Below, in pieces: positions 25,854-60,225 of a stretch of 64,000 bases of DNA; position 1 is the stretch's first letter; each line of letters begins with the position of its first letter. Both the position numbers and the translations under genes were made by a program. The stretch covers positions 59,681,484 to 59,745,483 of the forward strand of contig NC_057919.1 in assembly GCF_018873765.1 (NCBI RefSeq), given 5' to 3'. The notes beneath the pieces are model-generated. The model was given only the letters and a program-made list of their open reading frames with translations. It made no database searches and was not told the origin of the DNA. Source of the DNA: Telopea speciosissima (taxonomy: Eukaryota > Streptophyta > Magnoliopsida > Proteales > Proteaceae).

Positions 25854-27126
25854 TCTTTTTTTGGTTGAAAGAAGCTTTATTGGAAGAAAGGGCAAGTTAC
25901 AGCCGAGACATCCTAGTAACATAAATCTAGGAGCCAAGGATTGGAATTTAGCCAAATTGTCCTACGTGCAGAGGATAAGGCCTTCCTAGCTAGGAAATCG
26001 GCAACACCGTTCCTATCCCTAGAAACATGATTAAAGGCAATAGATGTAAACTGACTCGCTAAGCATCGAATATCATGGATGAAACTGCCAATAGATAGAG
26101 GGGCAGGATCATCACCGTTGATATAAGAGATCAGGGCGGCGCAATCAGATTCCACCATAATATGACTCACTCCAGCTTCCACTGCCACTAAGAGGCCTGC
26201 TCGAACAGCCATGGATTTGCCCATCAGAATATTACTCATAGTTACTGGATCTGATATGGCCAGAATGCTGTGTCCCAGATCATTCCTGATGATGAAGCCT
26301 ATTCCACCGTTGGACTCTCCTCTAGGTAAGGCTGCATCAGTGTTGAGCTTCACTTGACCGTGTGGAGGAGGAATCCACTGCCTCTGATCAGTGGACGGCG
26401 ACTCGACCAAGGACTGTGATGTGCAGATAAGACTTTGAGACAGCTTCCCAAACTCCTCGCAGGCCATCTGTGCATGATTAATTACTTCCTCAGGGGTCCA
26501 ACTTTTACGCTTGAAGATACGATCATTCCTAATGATCCATAAAGACCAACACATGAACGCAAACAAACTCAAGGTCTCCCTCCCCTCTTTCTTGCTTGCA
26601 AAGTTCAGCCGCTCCCAACTTTGAAGCACCCCTGCTAGCTTAATCTCTTCATTCGTAGGAATGATGAAGTTCAAATTACTTCCAAACCAAGAGGCTTTAG
26701 CAAAGTTGCAATTGAAGAGAATATGATCGGTGGATTCTAAAGCAGAACCGCAGGCAGAGCAGCTAGGATCTATAGGAACTTGCCTCTTAGCAAGCCCTTC
26801 CCCTGAAGCGATGCCGTGGGCACAACAGTGCCAGAGAAACGCTTTGATTTGGGGGGGGGGGGCATGCAGTTCCAAATACGTTTCCATTCTGACGGGGTGA
26901 TGTCCTCCCACTCGTTCCTTCTAGAAGATGAAGGTTGTAGTGACATGAGATGATCCCTCTGATTCGCTTGGACATGATAGGCTGACTTCACAGAAAAAAC
27001 CCCATTCATAGATCCTCCCCAAATCAGAATCTCTTCCCTCGGTGTTAAGCTTAAGGGAATTTTCAAAATCGCTGCAATGTCGAATGCTTGAAAAACCTGG
27101 TTAAGTATATCCACCTTCCAAGTACA
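25854..27126 (-). mobile_element. 5'-truncated L1-type LINE with 12-bp TSD
   Basis: The insert is bounded by perfect GGAGCTTTATAG repeats (25842-25853 and 27127-27138). Its 3' end on the - strand shows AATAAAG followed by a short A-run, as expected for target-primed reverse transcription. It carries only the 3' end of the LINE ORF2, so it was 5'-truncated on insertion. Confidence 0.92.
25913..27114 (-). pseudogene. LINE ORF2 C-terminus: zf-RVT plus RNase H, frameshifted
   Basis: On the - strand the first part (PLSLTPREEILIWGGSMNGV ... VKSAYHV) lies in one frame to about 26860. It then shifts at a C10 tract into the frame that encodes QIKAFLWHCC, the zinc-ribbon C-x2-C ... H-x3-F-x-C (PSCSACGSALESTDHILFNC), LFAFMCWSLWIIRNDRIFK and an RNase H domain (KLNTDAALPRG, IMVESDCAALISYI, FNHVSRDRNGVADFLARKA). 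Two catalytic Asp (N-T-D, E-S-D) and the late D are kept, but the Glu usually found before L-A-V-R-A-G appears as Lys (G-K-S-M-A-V-R-A-G). Together with the frameshift and truncation it is a dead copy. Confidence 0.88.
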
Positions 27127-37864: not shown

Positions 37865-40800
37865 CTACCCTTCTGATTGCATACCCCTGAGCACCCGCAA
37901 GATGGCGAGGAACAAATTGAGGATATCCAGATAGAGTACTGCAGAAGCCCATATGTACTCGTCGTAAGTGAAGCGCTTTATCAAGTTGTCTGTGTCATAA
38001 ACTAGATACCCTGAGAAAATCATGGCACCAATGGCACCATAAATTGCAACTGATGTTGGCCCAAGTGGGAAGAACATCTGCTTCATAAGAGACAAAGCAA
38101 AACAAAAAACAGAGGGTCCAAGTTAGATTTTTATCTTCACATGATAGTGCCAATGAGAATTCTAGTGAAATACGATTCCAAACATGCTTGTTGGACATCC
38201 AACAAGATAAAATATTTGCAAACATACAAACATGCATGTGGGTAAGGAAGCATGAAGAGACTAAGAGAGGACTAAAAAAGTCTAGTTGACCTGGATGAAG
38301 CCTGTAAGCATGAGGACAATGAGGGAGGAAAACAAGATTGGTCCAAGATAGCTGAAATCTTTGCCCTTCCTTGAAGCCCAGAATGTGTACCCGGTCAAGG
38401 AACAAACCACAGCTGAGGTTAAAATTAATGCTTCAAGTACAATTTTTCCTGCAAATTTTCGGCAATCATAAATAAGTAATGTAGATGAAGACCATTATGA
38501 ATGCCAGAAACTAGTCAAATGCCACCGGGTTCCCAGTTCTGTTCTTTAAGTGCTTCGATCAGAAGCGATAGCTTACAAAGATCACCAACCAGGAGGAGTA
38601 AAGATAACTAACCTTCCGTATTTGCACAGACTACCCCTACAGTGATACTCAGGGATGCAGTGAACAGCCCCAGAAATACAAAGTTCAATGGATGCTTCTG
38701 GTGATACATGTACAATGGCCACATAACTGCACAGTAAAATTCAGGGTCTGTGAGTAAGATATAGCTGAAAATAAGACATAAACTGCGTCAAATAAGTCCT
38801 GCAACATCTGTCAGCTCAAATAGATGAACGAGTGTGATGCAGGACAATCTTGGACTTGGCCGACCCAACTGGTGTACTACATTGGACCGACCCAAACCCA
38901 GTTGAACCAGGTCCAGTTTGAGTATTTGGATCTAGTAGGATTTTTAGGAAGTTTATTTTATTTGGGAAATTATTATGTAATCTTTTATTTTAAGGTGGTT
39001 GTTAGACATATAGGGAAATTTCCAATTTGAGTTTTATTGAGTTTCTATTTTAGTTAGCCTGGTTTTAGTAAGTAATTAGGAGTTTTTATTTTTGGGTGCC
39101 TTATCTTTCTCTTTATATATTGATGTAATTCCCCATTGTTTGAGATACGCAAGAATGAATTAAAAGAAAAGTGAGTTTGTGTGTGTGTGCAATATCTCCC
39201 CCCCCCCCCCCCCTTCTTCTCCCCACCCTCTGATTTCTTCTCAGATTTCCCCTCTCCTATTCTGTCCCCCATTATCTGGTATCAAAGCCAAAGGATCCCA
39301 TCTTCTTCCTTCACTTGTGATCTATTTCCCCCATTCTATTCTTGTCCCTCCCTTGTCTTTCCTATTCCCTCTTTCCTATTACAGTTCTGCAGTACAGTGA
39401 AAAAAAAATTTCCATCGATTCCCACTGCACCCGCCAGCCACTTTCTCCTACCCTCCATTTCCCCACCTTCTTCCCGCTGTGAAGCACCCATCCATTTGAT
39501 TCCCACAAAAAAAAAAAATCCCACAACCCACCACCCCCATCTTGGTTCCTCCCGAACCAGAAAAAAAAAAAACAAAAAACAAAAAAAAAAGGAGAGAAAA
39601 GATCAGAGAAGGGAGGAAATTGAGAGAGAGGAAGAGATCCCTGGTTCCCGTCGGTGTCGTCGGACCCCTGCACTCTAGCTCGGTTCCGTCGTCGCCGTGG
39701 GAGTCATCGTTGATTTTGAACTCCACCACCGCTGGCTCGAAATCTTTGCGCCATTAGTTTCTCCGCTGGATTCCTGCTAAAATTCCGCTGCCAGAGGAAG
39801 ACGACCCTCCTCGCCACGTCTTCAACTCCATGCGAAGGCTCTCTTCAGCCCTCTCAAACACGTCTTCCACCCTGCTGAGTGCTGAAACACGATAAGTCCT
39901 CTTTAAAGTCCTTTTTTTGTTTTTTCCCAATTTGCCCTCCCCTTTTCTTCATATTTGGGTTCATCCTTTCTTTTTGTTCTTTATTGTTCCAAGTTTGCCC
40001 CCCCATCTCTCCCGTGTCATTCAGAATTTTAGTTGAATCTCCATAATTACAAATCTGCCATCCATTTAGCAAATTTCAGTTTAATTACAATTCTGCCACT
40101 GTCCTTATAACCTTCATTGTATTTACAATTGTACTATCAATGTTCTACAAACCACCACCGAACCGAATTCGTTTAGTTACAATCCACCAGCTGCTCTATC
40201 CTATAACTGTAAAAGCGTTGCATCAAGTATTTTCTCCTCATGGATTTGTTGAAAAGATCAATATCTTTCATCAGTTTGCTATTGTTTGTCAAGCTTTTGT
40301 CCAATATCAGTCACTCCTGAGTGCCGTTTCAGCAAGGAATATTCTTCAAGGCCGTAATATTTATGATGATTGTTGTACACTGATCATCCAATTTTCATAC
40401 CTAAGTGAGGTACAATTGAACTACAAACGGTCAACGGGTTTCACGAACACATCCATGCCTTCAGAATAAAAAGACAGGAGAACTATGATTGAAGCATCAC
40501 CGACAGAATCACTTCTAGGAGATTCCAGTGCACTAACAGACGACTCTACTGAAGATGTCTCTGTTAAAGAGATTCAAGTCGACAAAGTTGAAGCGCCAAA
40601 AGACGAGCCGAATGGATTAACGCAAGTGGAAGAACAAATTGAAACTGGACATGATGATAGAGAAGAACAGAACGATCCGATCAAGATTGCAGCCGTGGAA
40701 CCGATCAATGGTCCGATTACAGTGGCAAAACCCTGTGGTCATATTCCAATCAAAGTCATATCATTTGTTGACGACCATCGGGAGATCGTAACAGTTGATC

Positions 40801-42747
40801 GGGAAATGTGCGGGATCATCACCCCATCTAAGCTTTTGATCATGGAAGCTGATCAAGTGGTGCTGATCCTTTCCTTCTTTAAAACTCATTGTTGAGTTTT
40901 TCTTAACCACGGGAGAGTTGATGCAGGACAATCTTGGACCGGGCCGATCCAACTGGTGTACTACATTGGACCGACCCAAACCCAGTTGAACCAGGTCCAG
41001 TTTGAGTGTTTGGATCTAGTAGGATTTTTAGGAACTTTATTTTATTTGGGAAATTATTATGTAATTATTTTAAGGTGGTTGTTAGACTTTCCAATTTGAG
41101 TTTTATTGGGTTTCTAGTTTAGTTAGCCTAGTTTTAGTAAGTAATTAGGAGTTTTTATTTTTGGGTGCCTTTTATTTCTCTTTATATATGATGTAATTCC
41201 CCATTGTTAGAGATATGCAAGAATGAATTGAAAAAAAAGTGAGTTTGTGCGTGTGCACTCACACCCCCCCCCTTCTTCTTCTTCTCACGGCTTCTTCTTC
41301 CCCCCTCCCCCCCCCCCCTGATTTCTTCTCAGATTTCCCCTCTCCTATTCTGTCCCCCATTAGAGTGACTGCTAACCAAAATTTTACATGGGCCAGGCAT
41401 GAATGGCCAGTTCATCTATTTTTCCTAAACTATCTGATTTATTGTCACTTTCTGAAATAAACAATATTACTTTAACTTAAAATGCAGAGAAAAAGAAAAT
41501 TCAAGCATTTGCAATCAACATATGAAAGAAGAAATTTACTCTCTCTGGATTCTTATTTTATCTATTGGTGCTAACAAGAAGATGATAAATCAAATAGCAA
41601 AACAAAGCAGACATGGCGCTACTGTAACTACTTCACATCCTACGACCAATTCATACAAACCAGAAAGAGAGTTAGGCCAACTTGCAATTTGAACTTCCTC
41701 TTTATTGATCAAGAAACATCCTGTACTATTGATAAGGAGATCTATCCAACGAAGTCTTGCAGTTCATATGTGACTCAAATTTTAATAGTTCATGGCATAA
41801 GCATGGTAATTCTTAATTTGAACCAGACCATTGTATGTGCTTCCCGACCACAATTTGGAACGAAGAAATTCAACCCACATACACCCTCCCCTTAAGCATT
41901 TCATGGAAATCCCTCCAAGACATGTATGGGAAAATACTTAATGATTTACATGCAATATCTTCATATAAAATCATCTAAACTAGCTTTATTTTTCAGATCT
42001 TCCCTGAAATAATACTCAGGTAAAGCTTGTGCCTTAGAGAACAGGGAAAGAATCACCCAACAATTAGTGAGCCAAAGATCAGAAAAGAGCCCTTGACTTC
42101 AATAGAAATGAAAGACAAAAAGAATTACATTCTTTCCAAAATTTCTAGCTATGATGAATCTGTCAAGCAAAAATAAAGAATTAAAGGACGCAACAAACGG
42201 AAATCACAACCATCCAGAAAATTAAAAGGCCAAGAAAAAGAAAGTCAACTTCTTTATGCCGATCAGGAAGAACAAGCAACAGCAAACATTACAAAGTCAT
42301 ATTCCCTAAAAGCAGAGGCAAAAGCAAGTAAATACAAACCTTTAAGTACGAAAAATTAAGACCCAGAATAAATTAATTAAAGAAAAAAAAGAAAGGTTAA
42401 CAACAAACATTCTTCAGATCCAAAAAAAACAACACAAAATCCAAACCCAAAAACACAATTAGCATAAAAAGTGTAGAAAAGGGGGGAAGAAGAGAATAAG
42501 GAGACATACGAATCATGGGCAAGAAGGCGAAGAACAACAATAGCCCGGGGCTTCCCTTAAGGAGTTCATTCATGGGAGTGTACAAGACGGTTGCAGAAGA
42601 GACGATCGTTGTGAGTACGATCTGGGCAGAAAGGATTCCGTATACCTTCCGTATGAATCCCCATCGAAGCTCGTTCTCTCCATAGCTCAACCCTGGGTAA
42701 AGCGTCCCCTCCTCTAAGTCTCCCTTGCTCACGCTCGTGAATCCGTA

Positions 42748-42750
<3 letters not shown>
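37865..42750 (-). CDS. LFG: LIFEGUARD / BAX inhibitor-1 motif family membrane protein (4 exons, 241 aa)
   Basis: Exons on the - strand: 42510-42750, 38613-38726, 38291-38448, 37865-38077; 726 nt in total, all junctions GT-AG and in frame. The protein starts MYGFTSVSKGDLEEGTLYPG, then the family block ELRWGFIRKVYGILSAQIVL, followed by about seven hydrophobic segments. Further family blocks are YMYHQKHPLNFVFLGLFTAS, GYTFWASRKGKDFSYLGP, and the C-terminal YLVYDTDNLIKRFTYDEYIW with LYLDILNLFLAILRVLRG. LFG/BI-1 proteins are multi-pass ER, Golgi or vacuolar membrane proteins that restrain cell death and affect Ca2+ balance; this role is family knowledge. Intron 1 is 3783 bp because an LTR element has inserted in it. 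The coding frame is intact. I cannot assign the LFG number. Confidence 0.94.
38830..38834 (+). repeat. Left TSD of the intronic LTR element (GAGTG)
   Basis: GAGTG here and again at 41363-41367 frames the element exactly. Confidence 0.9.
38835..39274 (+). mobile_element. 5' LTR of the intronic element
   Basis: 440 bp, TG...TA ends. TATA-like TTATATAT lies at 39113-39120, followed by (GT)n and a C-run near 39180-39212 that differs in length and composition from the 3' LTR. Confidence 0.9.
40140..40469 (+). pseudogene. Captured PTB-like RNA-recognition motif fragment (109 aa)
   Basis: The frame matches the second RRM region of plant polypyrimidine tract-binding proteins: NRIRLVTIHQLLYPIT (RNP2-type strand), LHQVFSPHGFVEKI, QAFVQYQSLLSAVSARN (RNP1-type strand), LQGRNIYDDCCTLIIQFSYL, VQLNYKRSTGFTNTSMPSE. 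Homology seems to continue through the TAA (SE-stop-K-D-R). PTBs of this type are about 400-450 aa, so roughly a quarter is present. Several family positions look altered, so neutral decay is likely after capture. The segment has no evident intron, hinting at capture through RNA; this last point is inference. It is not a host PTB gene: it sits wholly between the two LTRs. Confidence 0.8.
40485..40895 (+). other. Unidentified acidic open frame (136 aa) inside the intronic LTR element
   Basis: The frame starts MIEASPTESLLGDSSALTDD. Its first ~75 residues are rich in D/E/T/S; the second half is more folded-looking (KPCGHIPIKVISFVDDHREI, DREMCGIITPSKLL). I do not recognise the family. It may be a second captured fragment or ordinary element sequence. 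It ends just before the polypurine tract. Confidence 0.45.
40919..41362 (+). mobile_element. 3' LTR of the intronic element
   Basis: 444 bp, same ends as the 5' LTR. Differences by eye include CTTGGACC-GGGCCGATCC versus CTTGGACT-TGGCCGACCC, a missing ~11-bp segment near 41090, and different C/T-run lengths. Confidence 0.9.
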
Positions 42751-44925: not shown

Positions 44926-46202
44926 GGGCCTGCATGATAACACTTCTAATTCTCTATTTCTCTACTTTTTTGTTTCTAGGAAGAAAAAAATAGTAGAAAT
45001 CAGTTTGTTAACACTGGTTCATTTTTTTGTTCCTAGGAATAAATCGTGACCGAAAAGTAGCTGAGAAATAGAAAAAAATAAAAAAAGAAGCTCCAATTTG
45101 GAACTTCTCTATTCCATAAATAAAATAGAGAAATAACAGGGTGGGGGTGTTCGACCTATCTCCATGACTCTCATCTCTACCAGACACCTTTGTCGCCGCC
45201 ACTGCCTCCACCACCACAACCATGATTACCACCTCCTCCACAGCCACCACCGCCACCGTCACCACCACCGCTACCATCACCACCACCACCTCTACCGCCA
45301 CAACCTCCTCCACCATTGCCACCACACTACCACCACCGCCATCGCACCTTCACCATTTCCACCACCTTCACCACTACCACCACCGCCACAACTTCCTCCA
45401 CCATTGCCACCGCACTGCCACCATTTCCACCACCGCCACCACCACTCCTCAACCACTGCCGCCACCACCACTGTTACCACCTCCACCACCACCATCGCCC
45501 CATCACCACCTCCACCACAGCTACCACCACTACCACCGCTACCTTCACCACCACCAACATTGCCGCCACCATCTCCTCCACCGCCACCTCCACCACCACC
45601 ACCATCACCATCACCATCACCTCTATCACTGCCACCACCACCACTCCTCTACCATTGTCTCCACCACTATCGCCACCCCCACCACCGCCACCATCATCAC
45701 CACCTCCTCCAGGACCACCGCTACCACCTCCACCACCTCCATCACACCACCACCACCTCCACCACCACCATCACCATCACCTCCACCACTGCCACCACCA
45801 CCACTCCTATACCACTATCGCCACTGCCACCACCACCACCATCACCACCTCCTCCACCACCACCCCTACCGCCTCCACCACTGCCGTCACACCACTACCA
45901 CCGCCACCTCCTCCACCACCACCATCACCATCACCTCCACCGCTGCCACCACCACCACTGCCATCACCACTACCTCCATCAAATTTTTGGATATGCAATG
46001 ACATTTTTGAAAATTTATTGAAGTTCTAGAAACAAAATTTCCTACACATAACAAACGGGTTTCCGTTTCTTTTCTGGCTCAGAAATAGAAGTTACCAAAC
46101 ACGTTGTTTTGTCAAGAAATTTGGTCTAGTAATAGAAATAGAAAAAGATACTTCTGGAATAGAAACATGGCCCAGAAATAGAAGTGTTATCATGCATGCC
46201 CT
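44926..46202. mobile_element. TIR element (~1.28 kb) carrying a (CCA)n satellite block
   Basis: The ends GGGCCTGCATGATAACACTT and, inverted, GGGCATGCATGATAACACTT form a ~27-bp inverted repeat ending in CTA. Further inverted AGAAATAG/CTATTTCT words occur inside each end. No TSD was seen. The interior is almost wholly a CCA/CCG/CCT triplet block. No transposase is present. The superfamily is uncertain (hAT or Mutator-like). Confidence 0.6.
45176..45982. repeat. ~800-bp (CCA)n-type trinucleotide satellite
   Basis: CCACCACCG, CCACCATCA and similar triplets run with almost no G on the + strand, so all three + frames stay open as Pro/Thr/His-rich frames of up to 285 aa. The open frames are a consequence of composition; no start context, domain or splice structure supports a gene. 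Confidence 0.92.
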
Positions 46203-56461: not shown

Positions 56462-59400
56462 ATGGCTGCCGTTAATTCCAACCTGTTAACACTCATTAGC
56501 GAATATAAACTTAATGGTACAAACTATGTCGATTGGTACCGGAGCATTAAGTTGCTCCGATCTTGAAGGATGTACATAGTTCTAGATGAACAAGTTCCTC
56601 CTCAACCCGACCCGAACGATTTTGAGGCAAATGAAGAGATGCAAGGGTTCCTCATGAGGGATTCCAAGGCATCACTCTATATCCTAGGATCGTTGAAAAA
56701 ATCAGTTGTAGACTCAGTCAAGGATATACGCACTGCTGGGGGTAAAATGGATAAGCTTGCTAAATTATTCAACAGGCAGTTGACACACACATATTCTGAT
56801 GCGGTGAGTCAAATCCATAACTCCAAGATGTCTCAGGGGGACTCCAGTGATGGATCATGTAATGAAAATGATCAATCTGTTTAAAAAACTGGAATCCATG
56901 GGGACTGATTTCAGCCTACGATACAAGACTAATGTGATCTTAGCGTCACTCACTTCTACCTACGCACCTTTTAGGATGTCCTACAAGATGTCCGAGAAGG
57001 AGATGGAGCTCACCGAGCTTGCTAATGCACTGGTAGAGGCTGAAGCGTCCTTGAAAAAGGACAAGGCTGAGGTCAATGCAACTGAGGTAAAGCCTTCTTC
57101 AAATGGGAAGAAGAAGAAAAAGGGAAGTAAGGGCAAGACCCTGAAAGCCAAGGGTGGGAAGTCTGGCAATAAAGGCAAAGGCAAGTGCTTCTATTGCAAG
57201 AAGGAGGGTCACTGGAAAAGAAACTGTCGTGCTTACCTGGCAACTTTGAAAGACAAGAAGCCGGATGAAATAGAGGCTGCTAAAGAAGGTACATGTGATG
57301 TTCACGTTCTTTATGAGTCTAATTTGTCTTTTGAACCGATCAATTCTTGGTTGGTGGATAGTGGATCCACTGTTCACATTTGCAATGATTTGCAGGGGTT
57401 CAAGGAGACAAGGAACCTAGAAAGAAATGAAGTGCGTTTTCGGATGGGCACTGGAGCTGAGACCATGGCGTTGGCTGTGGGAACTTTTATTTTAAATTTT
57501 AGTTCTGCTAGTTTAGTTTTAAAGGATTGCTATTATGTACCCTCTTTCAAGAGGAAGATAATTTCAATTTCAAAACTTGTTTTGGACGGATATAGTTTTT
57601 CCTTTAATTCTAAATTGATTATTCGTTTTAATAATTCCTTTGTGGCATCCGGATATATGCAAAGTGGTTTGTATTTTCTAGATTGCCCTATTAGAACGAA
57701 TGTTGTTTCAAATGTTAATTTGAAACGGAAAGCAGCTCCAGTGAACTCAACATATTTGTGGCATCTAAGATTGGGTCACATTAATGTGGACCGAATCAGT
57801 AAATTGGTGAGGGATGGGTCCTTAGAGAGTCTGAGGGTGGAACCATTCCCCACCTGTGAGTCATGCCTTCAGGGCAAAATGACCAACAAATCCTTTAGCA
57901 ATAAAGGTGCTAGAGCCACAGATCTGTTGGAGTTGATACACACTGACGTGTGTGGACCCATAAACATACAAGCAAGATATGGGTATGAGTACTTTATCAC
58001 GTTCACCGATGATTACTCTAGATATGGTTACATATACTTGATGCGTAGGAAATCGGAAGCCTTTGATAAATTCAAAGAATTCTAAGCCGAGGTCGAAAGA
58101 CAGCTCGATAAACGTATCAAGTCCTTACGATCAGATCGTGGAGGGGAGTATCTATCGGATGAGTTTAAAGAACATCTCATATCCCAAGGGATAGTTAGTC
58201 AACTAACTAATCCAGGCACACCACAACAAAATGGTGTATCTGAACGACGCAATTGGACCCTATTGGATATGGTCAGGACGATGCTCACTTATAGTGAGCT
58301 GCCTCTTTCTTTCTGGGGGTATGCTTTAGAGACGGCGATATATATCTTGAATAGGGTTCCATCTAAGTCTGTAGCCAAGACACCCTTTGAGTTGTGGAAA
58401 GGGCGAAAGCCCAGTATTCAACACCTTAGGGTATGGGGTTGCATAGCACATGTGCGAAAGCAACAGACAGACAAGTTAGAATTCAGGACTTCGAGATGTT
58501 ATTTCTTAGGCTACCCCAAAGGCACGATAGGCTATTATTTCTATGACCCAGTTGACCAAAAGGTCATTGTAAGTAAACATGTCACATTTTTGGAGGAAGA
58601 AATGATGACCCAGAGGTCCGAACCAGTAGTCATAAAAGAGCTATCAGATGGCTTAGAAACATCACTTCCAGAAGTGAGACCAACTGACATACCCGCTGAA
58701 ATACCAACACCTGAGGAACCTCGACGCAGTGGGAGGACTGTTAGACCACCCACCAGGCTAACTCTTCTAACCGAAGAGGAAACAGTGGAAGAGTTCCACA
58801 TGGTATCGGTTGAATCGGATGATGATCCGATGACATACTCTGAGGCTCTAAAGGATGTTGATGCCACTAGGTGGCTGGAAGCAATGCGCTCTGCAATCGA
58901 TTCGATGCATTCCAACAAGGTCTGGACTCTAGTCGATCCACCACTTGGCGTCAAGCCGATTGGATGTAAATGGATCTTCAAGAGGAAGAAGGGCGCAGAT
59001 GGAAAGGTCAAGAGATTCAAAGCGAGACTGGTGGCAAAGGGTTATACCCAGAAAGAGGGTATAGACTATGAGGAAACCTTTTCACCAGTAGCGATGATGA
59101 AATCCATCAGGATTTTATTGGCTATCGCAGCACACTTTGATTATGAGATCTGGCAGATGGATGTGCAGACTGCATTTCTAAATGGATTCCTTCAAGAGAA
59201 AATCTACATGGAACAACCAGAGGGGTTCTCTTCCTTGGAGGAAGAAAGAAAGGTGTGCAAATTGCAGAGGTCCATTTATGGGCTGAAGCAGGCTTCCAGG
59301 AGCTGGAACATCAGGTTTGATCAATCAATCAAATCATTTGGTTTTGATCAAAACATGGATGAACCATGCGTTTACAAGAAGATCAGTGGGAGGGCAGTAT

Positions 59401-60225
59401 GTTTTCGTGTTTTATACGTAGATGACATATTGCTGATTGGTAACGATGTAGGATTCCTTTCATCAGTAAAACAATGGTTATCCACAACGTTTTCGATGAA
59501 AGACCTTAGTGAAGCTAGCTATATCCTTGGGATCAAACTCGTAAGAGATCGCCAGAAAAGGATGCTAGGCTTGTCACAGGCTACCTATATAGACAAAGTC
59601 CTGGCCAGATTTAGTATGGAGAACTCTAAGAGGGGAAGTGTTCCCTTCAGACATGGAGTCAGTCTTTCCAGATCTCAGTGTCCTCAGTCTTAGACAGACA
59701 TTGAAGAGATGAAGAGGATTCCCTATGCCTCAGCAGTAGGGAGTCTTATGTACGCCATGTTGCGCACGAGGCCGAACGTCTGCTATGCAGTAGGTATTGT
59801 GAGTCATTACGAGTTTAATGAGTGGAGGTCCCATTGTATAGAGGAGTACAAAATAGAAATCTATAGCCGATCCCTATTTTTATGAACACCTTGCATCATG
59901 TGATGCGTTTAATAAGGTGTTTGGGTAGGAAGTTCCTAACATTTCTGGAGTAGTCCCTGATCTTGTCAAGGGCCCTATTCCCCTGTTATGTGACAACAGA
60001 GGGGCCATTGCACAAGCTAAGGAGCCTAGGGCTCATCAGAGGAACAAGCATGTGCAGCGGAAGTATCACCTCATCAGAGAGATTATCCAGCAGAGTGACG
60101 TGAGTATCTCCAAAGTGGACACAACTGAAAATGTGTCTGATGCCATAACAAAGGGTTTGTCACCAGGAGTGTTTGAGAAACACATAGAGGGCATGGGTTT
60201 AAAATGTATGGGGAATTGGCTTTGA
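56462..60225 (+). pseudogene. Copia gag-pol, inactivated by stops, frameshifts and an RT-RNase H deletion
   Basis: Starts MAAVNSNLLTLISEYKLNGT (56462) but meets a TGA after L-L-R-S. Gag continues at 56570 (MYIVLDEQVPPQPDPNDF), shifts frame near 56850 and runs through the CCHC knuckle CFYCKKEGHWKRNC, protease WLVDSGSTVHICND, the GAG-pre-integrase/zinc region WHLRLGHINV ... CESCLQGK, and integrase (IHTDVCGPI, TFTDDYSRYGYIYL) to a TAA at 58083. After it: [12 protein letters not shown] (catalytic E), the RT with [13 protein letters not shown], then a TAG at 59691. RT C-terminal sequence breaks off near 59800 (GIVSHYEFN) and resumes in RNase H at about 59960 (VPDLVKGPIPLLCDNRGAIA ... KHVQRKYHLIREII), so several hundred bases are missing. 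It ends MGNWL-stop. Confidence 0.93.

Follow-up and report, generated by a model that had tools for sequence, protein, structure and literature searches.

An RNA-derived RRM2 of a polypyrimidine tract-binding protein carried by a non-autonomous LTR element family in Telopea speciosissima

We analyzed a stretch of 64,000 nt of the Telopea speciosissima genome (C4:59681484-59745483; the window, to which all coordinates without another label refer) and found in it a non-autonomous LTR element that carries the RRM2 of a PTB3-type polypyrimidine tract-binding protein (PTB). Very probably, the family of this element took one RNA-derived copy of the PTB3 RRM2 –likely from the gene on C1–, fused it to its own C-terminal module, spread through the genome, and recombined while doing so.

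At the structural level, the window copy presented all the features of an LTR retrotransposon: paired TG LTRs, a target site duplication (TSD), a primer binding site, and a polypurine tract. A previous reading of the window, based on the sequence only, had described two LTRs with a perfect 5-bp TSD and an element lacking gag-pol. Both points were confirmed, since GAGTG stands at 38830-38834 and again at 41363-41367, and none of the six ORFs scanned in the element region matched a gag-pol family in Pfam. The gag-pol domains that define an autonomous LTR retrotransposon were therefore absent from these six ORFs. The TSD finding covers the window copy. The element totals ~2.5 kb, with an internal part of 1644 bp, and the TGGTATCAAAGCC at 39277 is presumably a primer binding site of the initiator-Met tRNA type. 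The features of the element and of its insertion site are the following:

38835-41362, + strand: whole element, non-autonomous LTR element with both LTRs present
38830-38834: left copy of the TSD, GAGTG (from the sequence)
41363-41367: right copy of the TSD, GAGTG (from the sequence)
38835-39274, + strand: 5' LTR, 440 bp, TG...TA, direct repeat of 40919-41362
40919-41362, + strand: 3' LTR, 444 bp, TG...TA, direct repeat of 38835-39274
39277-39289, + strand: primer binding site TGGTATCAAAGCC, two bases past the 5' LTR (from the sequence, by inspection)
39275-40139, + strand: leader, 61% C+T (from the sequence composition)
40140-40469, + strand: frame with the PTB RRM2, 109 aa, ending in TAA (Pfam, PDB match, host comparison)
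about 40153-40477, + strand: stretch homologous to the host PTB3 gene at the DNA level, made of five joined exons (blastn against that gene, GT-AG exon borders)
40470-40895, + strand: continuation of the chimeric ORF (its second half) in the same phase as the PTB frame, comprising the acidic module A and the conserved tail
40910-40918, + strand: polypurine-like tract CGGGAGAGT, before the 3' LTR (from the sequence, by inspection)
42397-42750, - strand: frame with the first coding exon of an LFG/Bax1-I-like gene (Bax1-I E 2.6e-4, below the curated cut-off)
38600-38750, - strand, borders approximate: following exon of the LFG/Bax1-I-like gene (frame read by eye)

Because the exons at 42397-42750 and at about 38600-38750 flank the element, it reads as an intron insertion in an LFG/Bax1-I-like gene, antisense to it; we take this host gene to be LFG. 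The two LTRs of the window copy are 0.061 apart (K2P). LTR substitution rates are 0.4-1.3e-8 per site and year, so the insertion would be roughly 2-8 million years old.

Other repeats were seen by eye in the window: two long adjoining frames of 425 and 535 aa at 56808-59693, resembling a copia-type polyprotein, and a 335-aa frame at 25913-26920 on the - strand, resembling the RNase H end of a plant LINE. A long low-complexity C/T-rich stretch at 45137-46029 is open in several frames.

The frame at 40140-40469 had been read as a plant PTB RRM2, and database searches bore this out. Together with an upstream extension (40047-40466), it matched RRM_8 (1.2e-14) and RRM_1 (5.6e-5) in Pfam, and its top PDB match was PTBP1 RRM2 (4.9e-16, residues 12-108). 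Judged by these similarities, the match to a PTB RRM2 is far beyond chance. The extent of the frame needed a correction: the 109-aa RRM2 frame is there, but homology to PTB passes its stop, and the ORF to which it belongs is longer, the frame being its N-terminal part. Full PTB proteins carry more than one RRM. The element resembles a plant PTB3-type protein in carrying its RRM2 and flanks, and differs from it in having one, decayed, RRM; RRM2 alone matched, and the full RRM set is absent. A single-sequence fold of the frame was all-helix (mean pLDDT 50, pTM 0.30), too poor a model to inform, and it does not back an RRM fold.

For the host genes, we searched the 823-Mb genome (1287 contigs) using an Arabidopsis PTB3 protein without its RRM2 as the query, which retrieved two genes of the PTB3 type, one on C1 and the other on C7. 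In each gene, the RRM2 region is divided into five exons, and all of their borders (10/10 per gene) have ag upstream or gt downstream. The window fragment follows these exons one after another, and the four GT-AG introns are missing at the junctions, which lie near 40281-40285 and at 40349/40350, 40399/40400, and 40435/40436. Since the four host introns are gone at splice sites, the copy derives from spliced RNA, either directly or through a retrocopy. Capture from spliced RNA was also part of the sequence-only reading, and the host exon map agrees with it: no intron sequence was retained at the four junctions. The window fragment keeps 83% identity to the C1 exons over 128 bp and 85% over 65 bp.

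The same intron-free junctions would result from capture through a DNA intermediate, in which a processed PTB3 retrocopy came first and was then taken up by insertion or recombination. However, a genome search with the other PTB parts (15 match rows, 26 candidates scored) retrieved no close multi-exon copy, and its two long single matches have an identity of 28-31%. The flanks were examined at 43 of the about 75 places with an RRM2, and five of the first 40 lack a repeat pair, which leaves some room for a retrocopy. On balance, we consider this route unlikely.

Further copies of the fragment are spread over the genome. In the DNA search, the 40 candidates scored (of 77, window included) all matched, with 81-100% identity, on C1-C11 and C20. 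In the protein search, 101/101 candidates were scored and 87 rows were listed: two are the host genes, and the other 85 correspond to 75 places when merged within 1 kb, window included, or to 69 when same-strand rows up to 12 kb apart are joined. Thus, the fragment belongs to a repeat family of about 75 places, a point that the earlier reading had missed. Sister elements with related LTRs and without the fragment are described below.

In 35/40 copies, the fragment is flanked on either side by a direct repeat lying within 1.5 kb (K2P 0.015-0.109, with three of the values coming from fewer than 150 sites). The repeat of L020 and L024 extends over internal sequence, and discounting these two leaves 33 plain LTR pairs. 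These two copies (C6:60.13 Mb) are PTB fragments lying 1.9 kb apart in one stretch with tandem internal regions. No flanking repeat pair was found within 1.5 kb at L010, L017, L032, L033, and L034.

A tree was built from 43 copies plus both hosts, and in it the copies formed one clade (ultrafast bootstrap 100). There are 14 sites where the hosts agree and at least 90% of the copies differ from them. Among these, sites 89, 126, 157, 188, and 240 (0-based) differ also in the four copies of an old clade (L002, L063, L081, and L082), and site 211 (0-based) differs in the three old-clade copies having a letter there. Copy-specific sites common to the old clade favor one capture, and a single capture of the PTB fragment seems most likely.

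Regarding the donor, at the 18 sites where the hosts differ the copies match C1 541 times and C7 168 times. The synonymous distance of the copies is about 0.3 to C1 and about 0.45 to C7, with 0.22 between C1 and C7. Both results point to C1 as the likelier source. We suggest that the C1 gene was most likely the donor, bearing in mind that faster change in C7 would give the same pattern and that the tree has no outgroup. In the old clade, PTB homology starts about 2 nt or less from the 5' border of the exon; this would perhaps fit an element transcript spliced into the PTB exon, and the few upstream bases do not discriminate.

We looked for an autonomous partner through the LTRs (best 40 of 1074 candidates scored, at least 45 matches), and found none in eight of the LTR loci and one 10-kb stretch. 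That stretch, a candidate partner at C4:13.14 Mb, was discarded, since it turned out to be a PTB copy that other insertions had split. By eye, the split copy (L067, C4:13.14-13.15 Mb) contains copia-like frames and one LINE-like frame.

The stop that closes the window frame is not general to the family. At 40467-40469, the window has TAA in place of the CAG (Gln) of both host genes, and the same codon is CAG or CAA in 12/16 of the copies L009-L024; the other four are the window TAA, one TAG, and two with another codon through a shifted frame. The frame is open through the tail SKLLIVD-DRVVLILSFFKTRGRVFLN-GRVDAGQSW in 8/40 copies, an ORF of at least 250 codons is found in 10/40, and in some copies (e.g., L010 and L029) the ORF crosses the 3' LTR border. 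Thus, a predicted hybrid ORF is present in copies of the family. TRIMs are defined by a miniature size, short LTRs, and no long ORF, and the element departs from them with its 2.5 kb, 440-bp LTR, and long frames in a quarter of those 40 copies.

We considered whether the second frame was another captured gene and rejected it: Pfam gave no match up to a value of 1, PDB gave none better than 0.69, and the frame matches the C-terminus of sister elements. The whole ORF of copy L010 gave weak, below-cut-off Pfam matches (PH_FAN, 0.0048; DUF4140, 0.093). Besides, a subfamily B presents a different middle module and the same tail as subfamily A. Within the old clade, both B and A are found, in L081 and L082, so 5' and 3' parts have been exchanged between subfamilies.

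The sister elements, L003 and L004/L008 (L004 and L008 being one locus), carry another N-terminal domain. Their LTRs are 87-88% like the window 5' LTR, and further LTRs at sister loci are 85-87% like it. At the other end of the ORF, window 40620-41027 matches the C-terminus of the sister element L068 (50% over 137 aa, E 5e-28). Since this C-terminus is common to elements with another N-terminal domain, the PTB RRM2 occupies that domain's place. The sister domain was located as follows:

L068:1549-1902, L078:1931-2350, and L079:1952-2371: sister N-terminal domain, beginning METHIF... / FVFKTRVRLPNGSTAILVVDERRRNN..., with an acidic linker

The sister domain is abundant (150/150 scored matched, these being the best 150 of 800 candidates). 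Because of this wider spread we take it as the older one, and we infer that PTB replaced a sister-type domain and not the reverse. The domain had no convincing match in Pfam or PDB: L068 gave none in Pfam and a best E of 0.55 in PDB, and L078 and L079 gave solely DUF740 in Pfam, below the cut-off (0.0065 and 0.0028). By eye it resembles a decayed retropepsin that lacks the active-site motif, an identification that was abandoned, as these searches gave no convincing match. L078 and L079 have direct repeats of 1.1-1.3 kb that are 98-99% alike, and so they look young. At L003:1042-1945 and L004:1500-2413, two LTRs lie head to tail, a few bases apart, adjoining the internal region.

At the protein level, we tested selection on the PTB part in the 40 copies nearest to the window (of about 75 places), with the old clade represented by L063 alone and the stem branch not treated separately. 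On internal branches, the changes at codon positions 1/2/3 were 23/37/32, a position-3 share of 0.348 vs. 0.325 ± 0.05 under neutrality. Simulations gave a value as low as this in 2/120 cases with an omega of 0.5, and in 0/120 with 0.3 and with 0.1. For 561 close pairs, the NG86 ratio was 0.69 vs. a simulated neutral value of 0.72. The PTB part changes close to neutrally in these 40 copies, and an omega of 0.5 or lower is disfavored on internal branches.

Purifying selection on the PTB part was thus not seen on internal branches or in close pairs, with weak contrary signs elsewhere. The terminal-branch changes were 98/98/114, and their position-3 share of 0.368, above neutral, was reached in 19/150 neutral simulations and in 5/150 with a CpG effect. 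Stop-free copies were 24/40, whereas neutral simulations averaged 16.1 and 13.6 and reached at most 33 and 28. Distant copy pairs presented NG86 ratios of 0.61 and 0.59, the neutral value of 0.72 being calibrated for close pairs only, and copies against host C1 ranged from 0.31 to 0.78, mixed with the host's own constraint. These other measures hint at a weak constraint on the PTB part. The sister domain had an NG86 ratio of 0.48 vs. 0.74 (15 non-independent pairs from six copies). For the C-terminal modules, codon positions gave no clear signal of selection in the 19 copies of module A (internal changes 38/45/52, position-3 share 0.385) and the 17 of module B (26/20/23, 0.333); the LTR control presented 9/10/12 and 0.387 in 22 copies.

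Indels were informative as well. A 9-nt deletion takes away three residues inside what we assume, from the RRM topology, to be RNP1, and it was found in 11/40 copies. Nine of these 11 have a flanking repeat pair, so lineages having the deletion moved. The common indels of the PTB part are in frame (+3 in 39/40 copies, -6, and -9), and most of the rarer ones are out of frame. Within this small sample, the in-frame common indels allow past selection on the open frame.

One way to accommodate these signs is a transient role: after the domain swap, the chimera could for a time have bound the CU-rich leader and aided the RNA into the partner's particles, a Gag-like role lost later. Relics of that phase would then be seen in the common indels that are in frame and in the slightly low dN/dS of distant copies. 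To us, such a phase seems quite improbable.

The PTB part could also be, or have been, a selected domain of the element, with the chimeric protein binding the CU-rich leader for packaging or export in cis, a task in which it would stand in for the older N-terminal domain. PTB binds CU tracts, and the window leader, 61% pyrimidine, contains 59 CU tetramers vs. 44.3 ± 8.4 in mononucleotide shuffles, a weak excess. The common in-frame indels, the position-3 excess of terminal branches, the ratios of 0.59-0.61 in distant pairs, and the frames open over at least 250 codons (10/40) or through the tail (8/40) would agree with it. However, internal-branch codon positions fit neutrality and disfavor an omega of 0.5 or lower, close pairs are at 0.69 vs. 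a neutral 0.72, and 11/40 copies lack three RNP1 residues, nine of them having a flanking repeat pair. Moreover, the leader of the PTB-less sister L008 is equally CU-rich (82 tetramers vs. 52.6 ± 7.9), so a CU-rich leader does not depend on PTB, and we rejected a co-adaptation of PTB and leader on this ground. Overall, we find a selected domain highly improbable.

Finally, the sequence-only reading had suggested, as speculation, that the RRM fragment could influence host PTB transcripts. This is not supported: the PTB part changes close to neutrally in the 40 copies tested, three RNP1 residues are missing in 11 of them, and the window copy has a stop in place of a host Gln. Sense/antisense or small RNA from the about 75 copies might match the PTB3 mRNA through the segments at 83% and 85% identity to the C1 exons and alter host PTB expression, but few 21-nt stretches would match exactly at about 83% identity, and we give this effect a very slim chance.

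We therefore return to the capture of a single RNA-derived RRM2 by the element family. Most likely, PTB3 mRNA and element RNA, or a spliced read-through transcript, would have been reverse-transcribed together by the enzyme of a partner. Template switching during reverse transcription would have placed RRM2 in frame ahead of the C-terminal module, and the PTB exon may have joined through an element transcript spliced into it. RRM2 would have taken the place of the N-terminal domain still carried by sister elements. The chimera would then have spread in trans via an autonomous partner to about 75 places, with subfamilies recombining during the spread, and the window element would be one of these copies, inserted antisense in the LFG-like intron. 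The PTB protein piece is now probably without function.

This case represents a well resolved RNA-derived gene capture, with its host gene, exon junctions, domain-replacement architecture, and many datable descendants. It lets one ask about the fate of a captured RNA-binding domain, which here was carried and recombined with little sign of protein-level selection in the tested copies. Moreover, the sister elements indicate that this genome harbors a large repeat family, whose N-terminal domain lacks a convincing match in Pfam or PDB.

In the literature on gene capture, judged from titles and the first lines of abstracts, we found no capture of PTB by an LTR element. The closest system is maize Bs1, an LTR element with host gene pieces in a hybrid ORF (PMC13317346) that captured exons only (PMC4717578). 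The element described here is similar in both respects, with intron-less host coding sequence of five exons between its LTRs. It differs in that Bs1, as presented there, has pieces of three genes, whereas here one RRM of a splicing regulator occupies the position of another domain in sister elements and is found at about 75 places.

Host genes within LTR elements were also surveyed in rice and sorghum, and a higher share of the rice cases is reported as neutral pseudogenes (PMC3726574). Our near-neutral PTB part is in line with those rice cases, and the difference is that here one family was traced copy by copy together with its host gene.

Gene-carrying TRIMs are small LTR elements with a 5-bp TSD that made more copies after capture; the soybean TRIM GmaRetroS15 holds an exon-only fragment, exons 5-9 of a kinase gene without introns (PMC4717578). 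Our element shares the small size, the 5-bp TSD, the exon-only fragment, and the later copies, and differs from them in its length (2.5 kb vs. 1.2-1.4 kb) and in the long chimeric ORF of some copies. As far as these sources go, exon-only capture by small LTR elements followed by further copies is already known, and the PTB piece adds a case to it.
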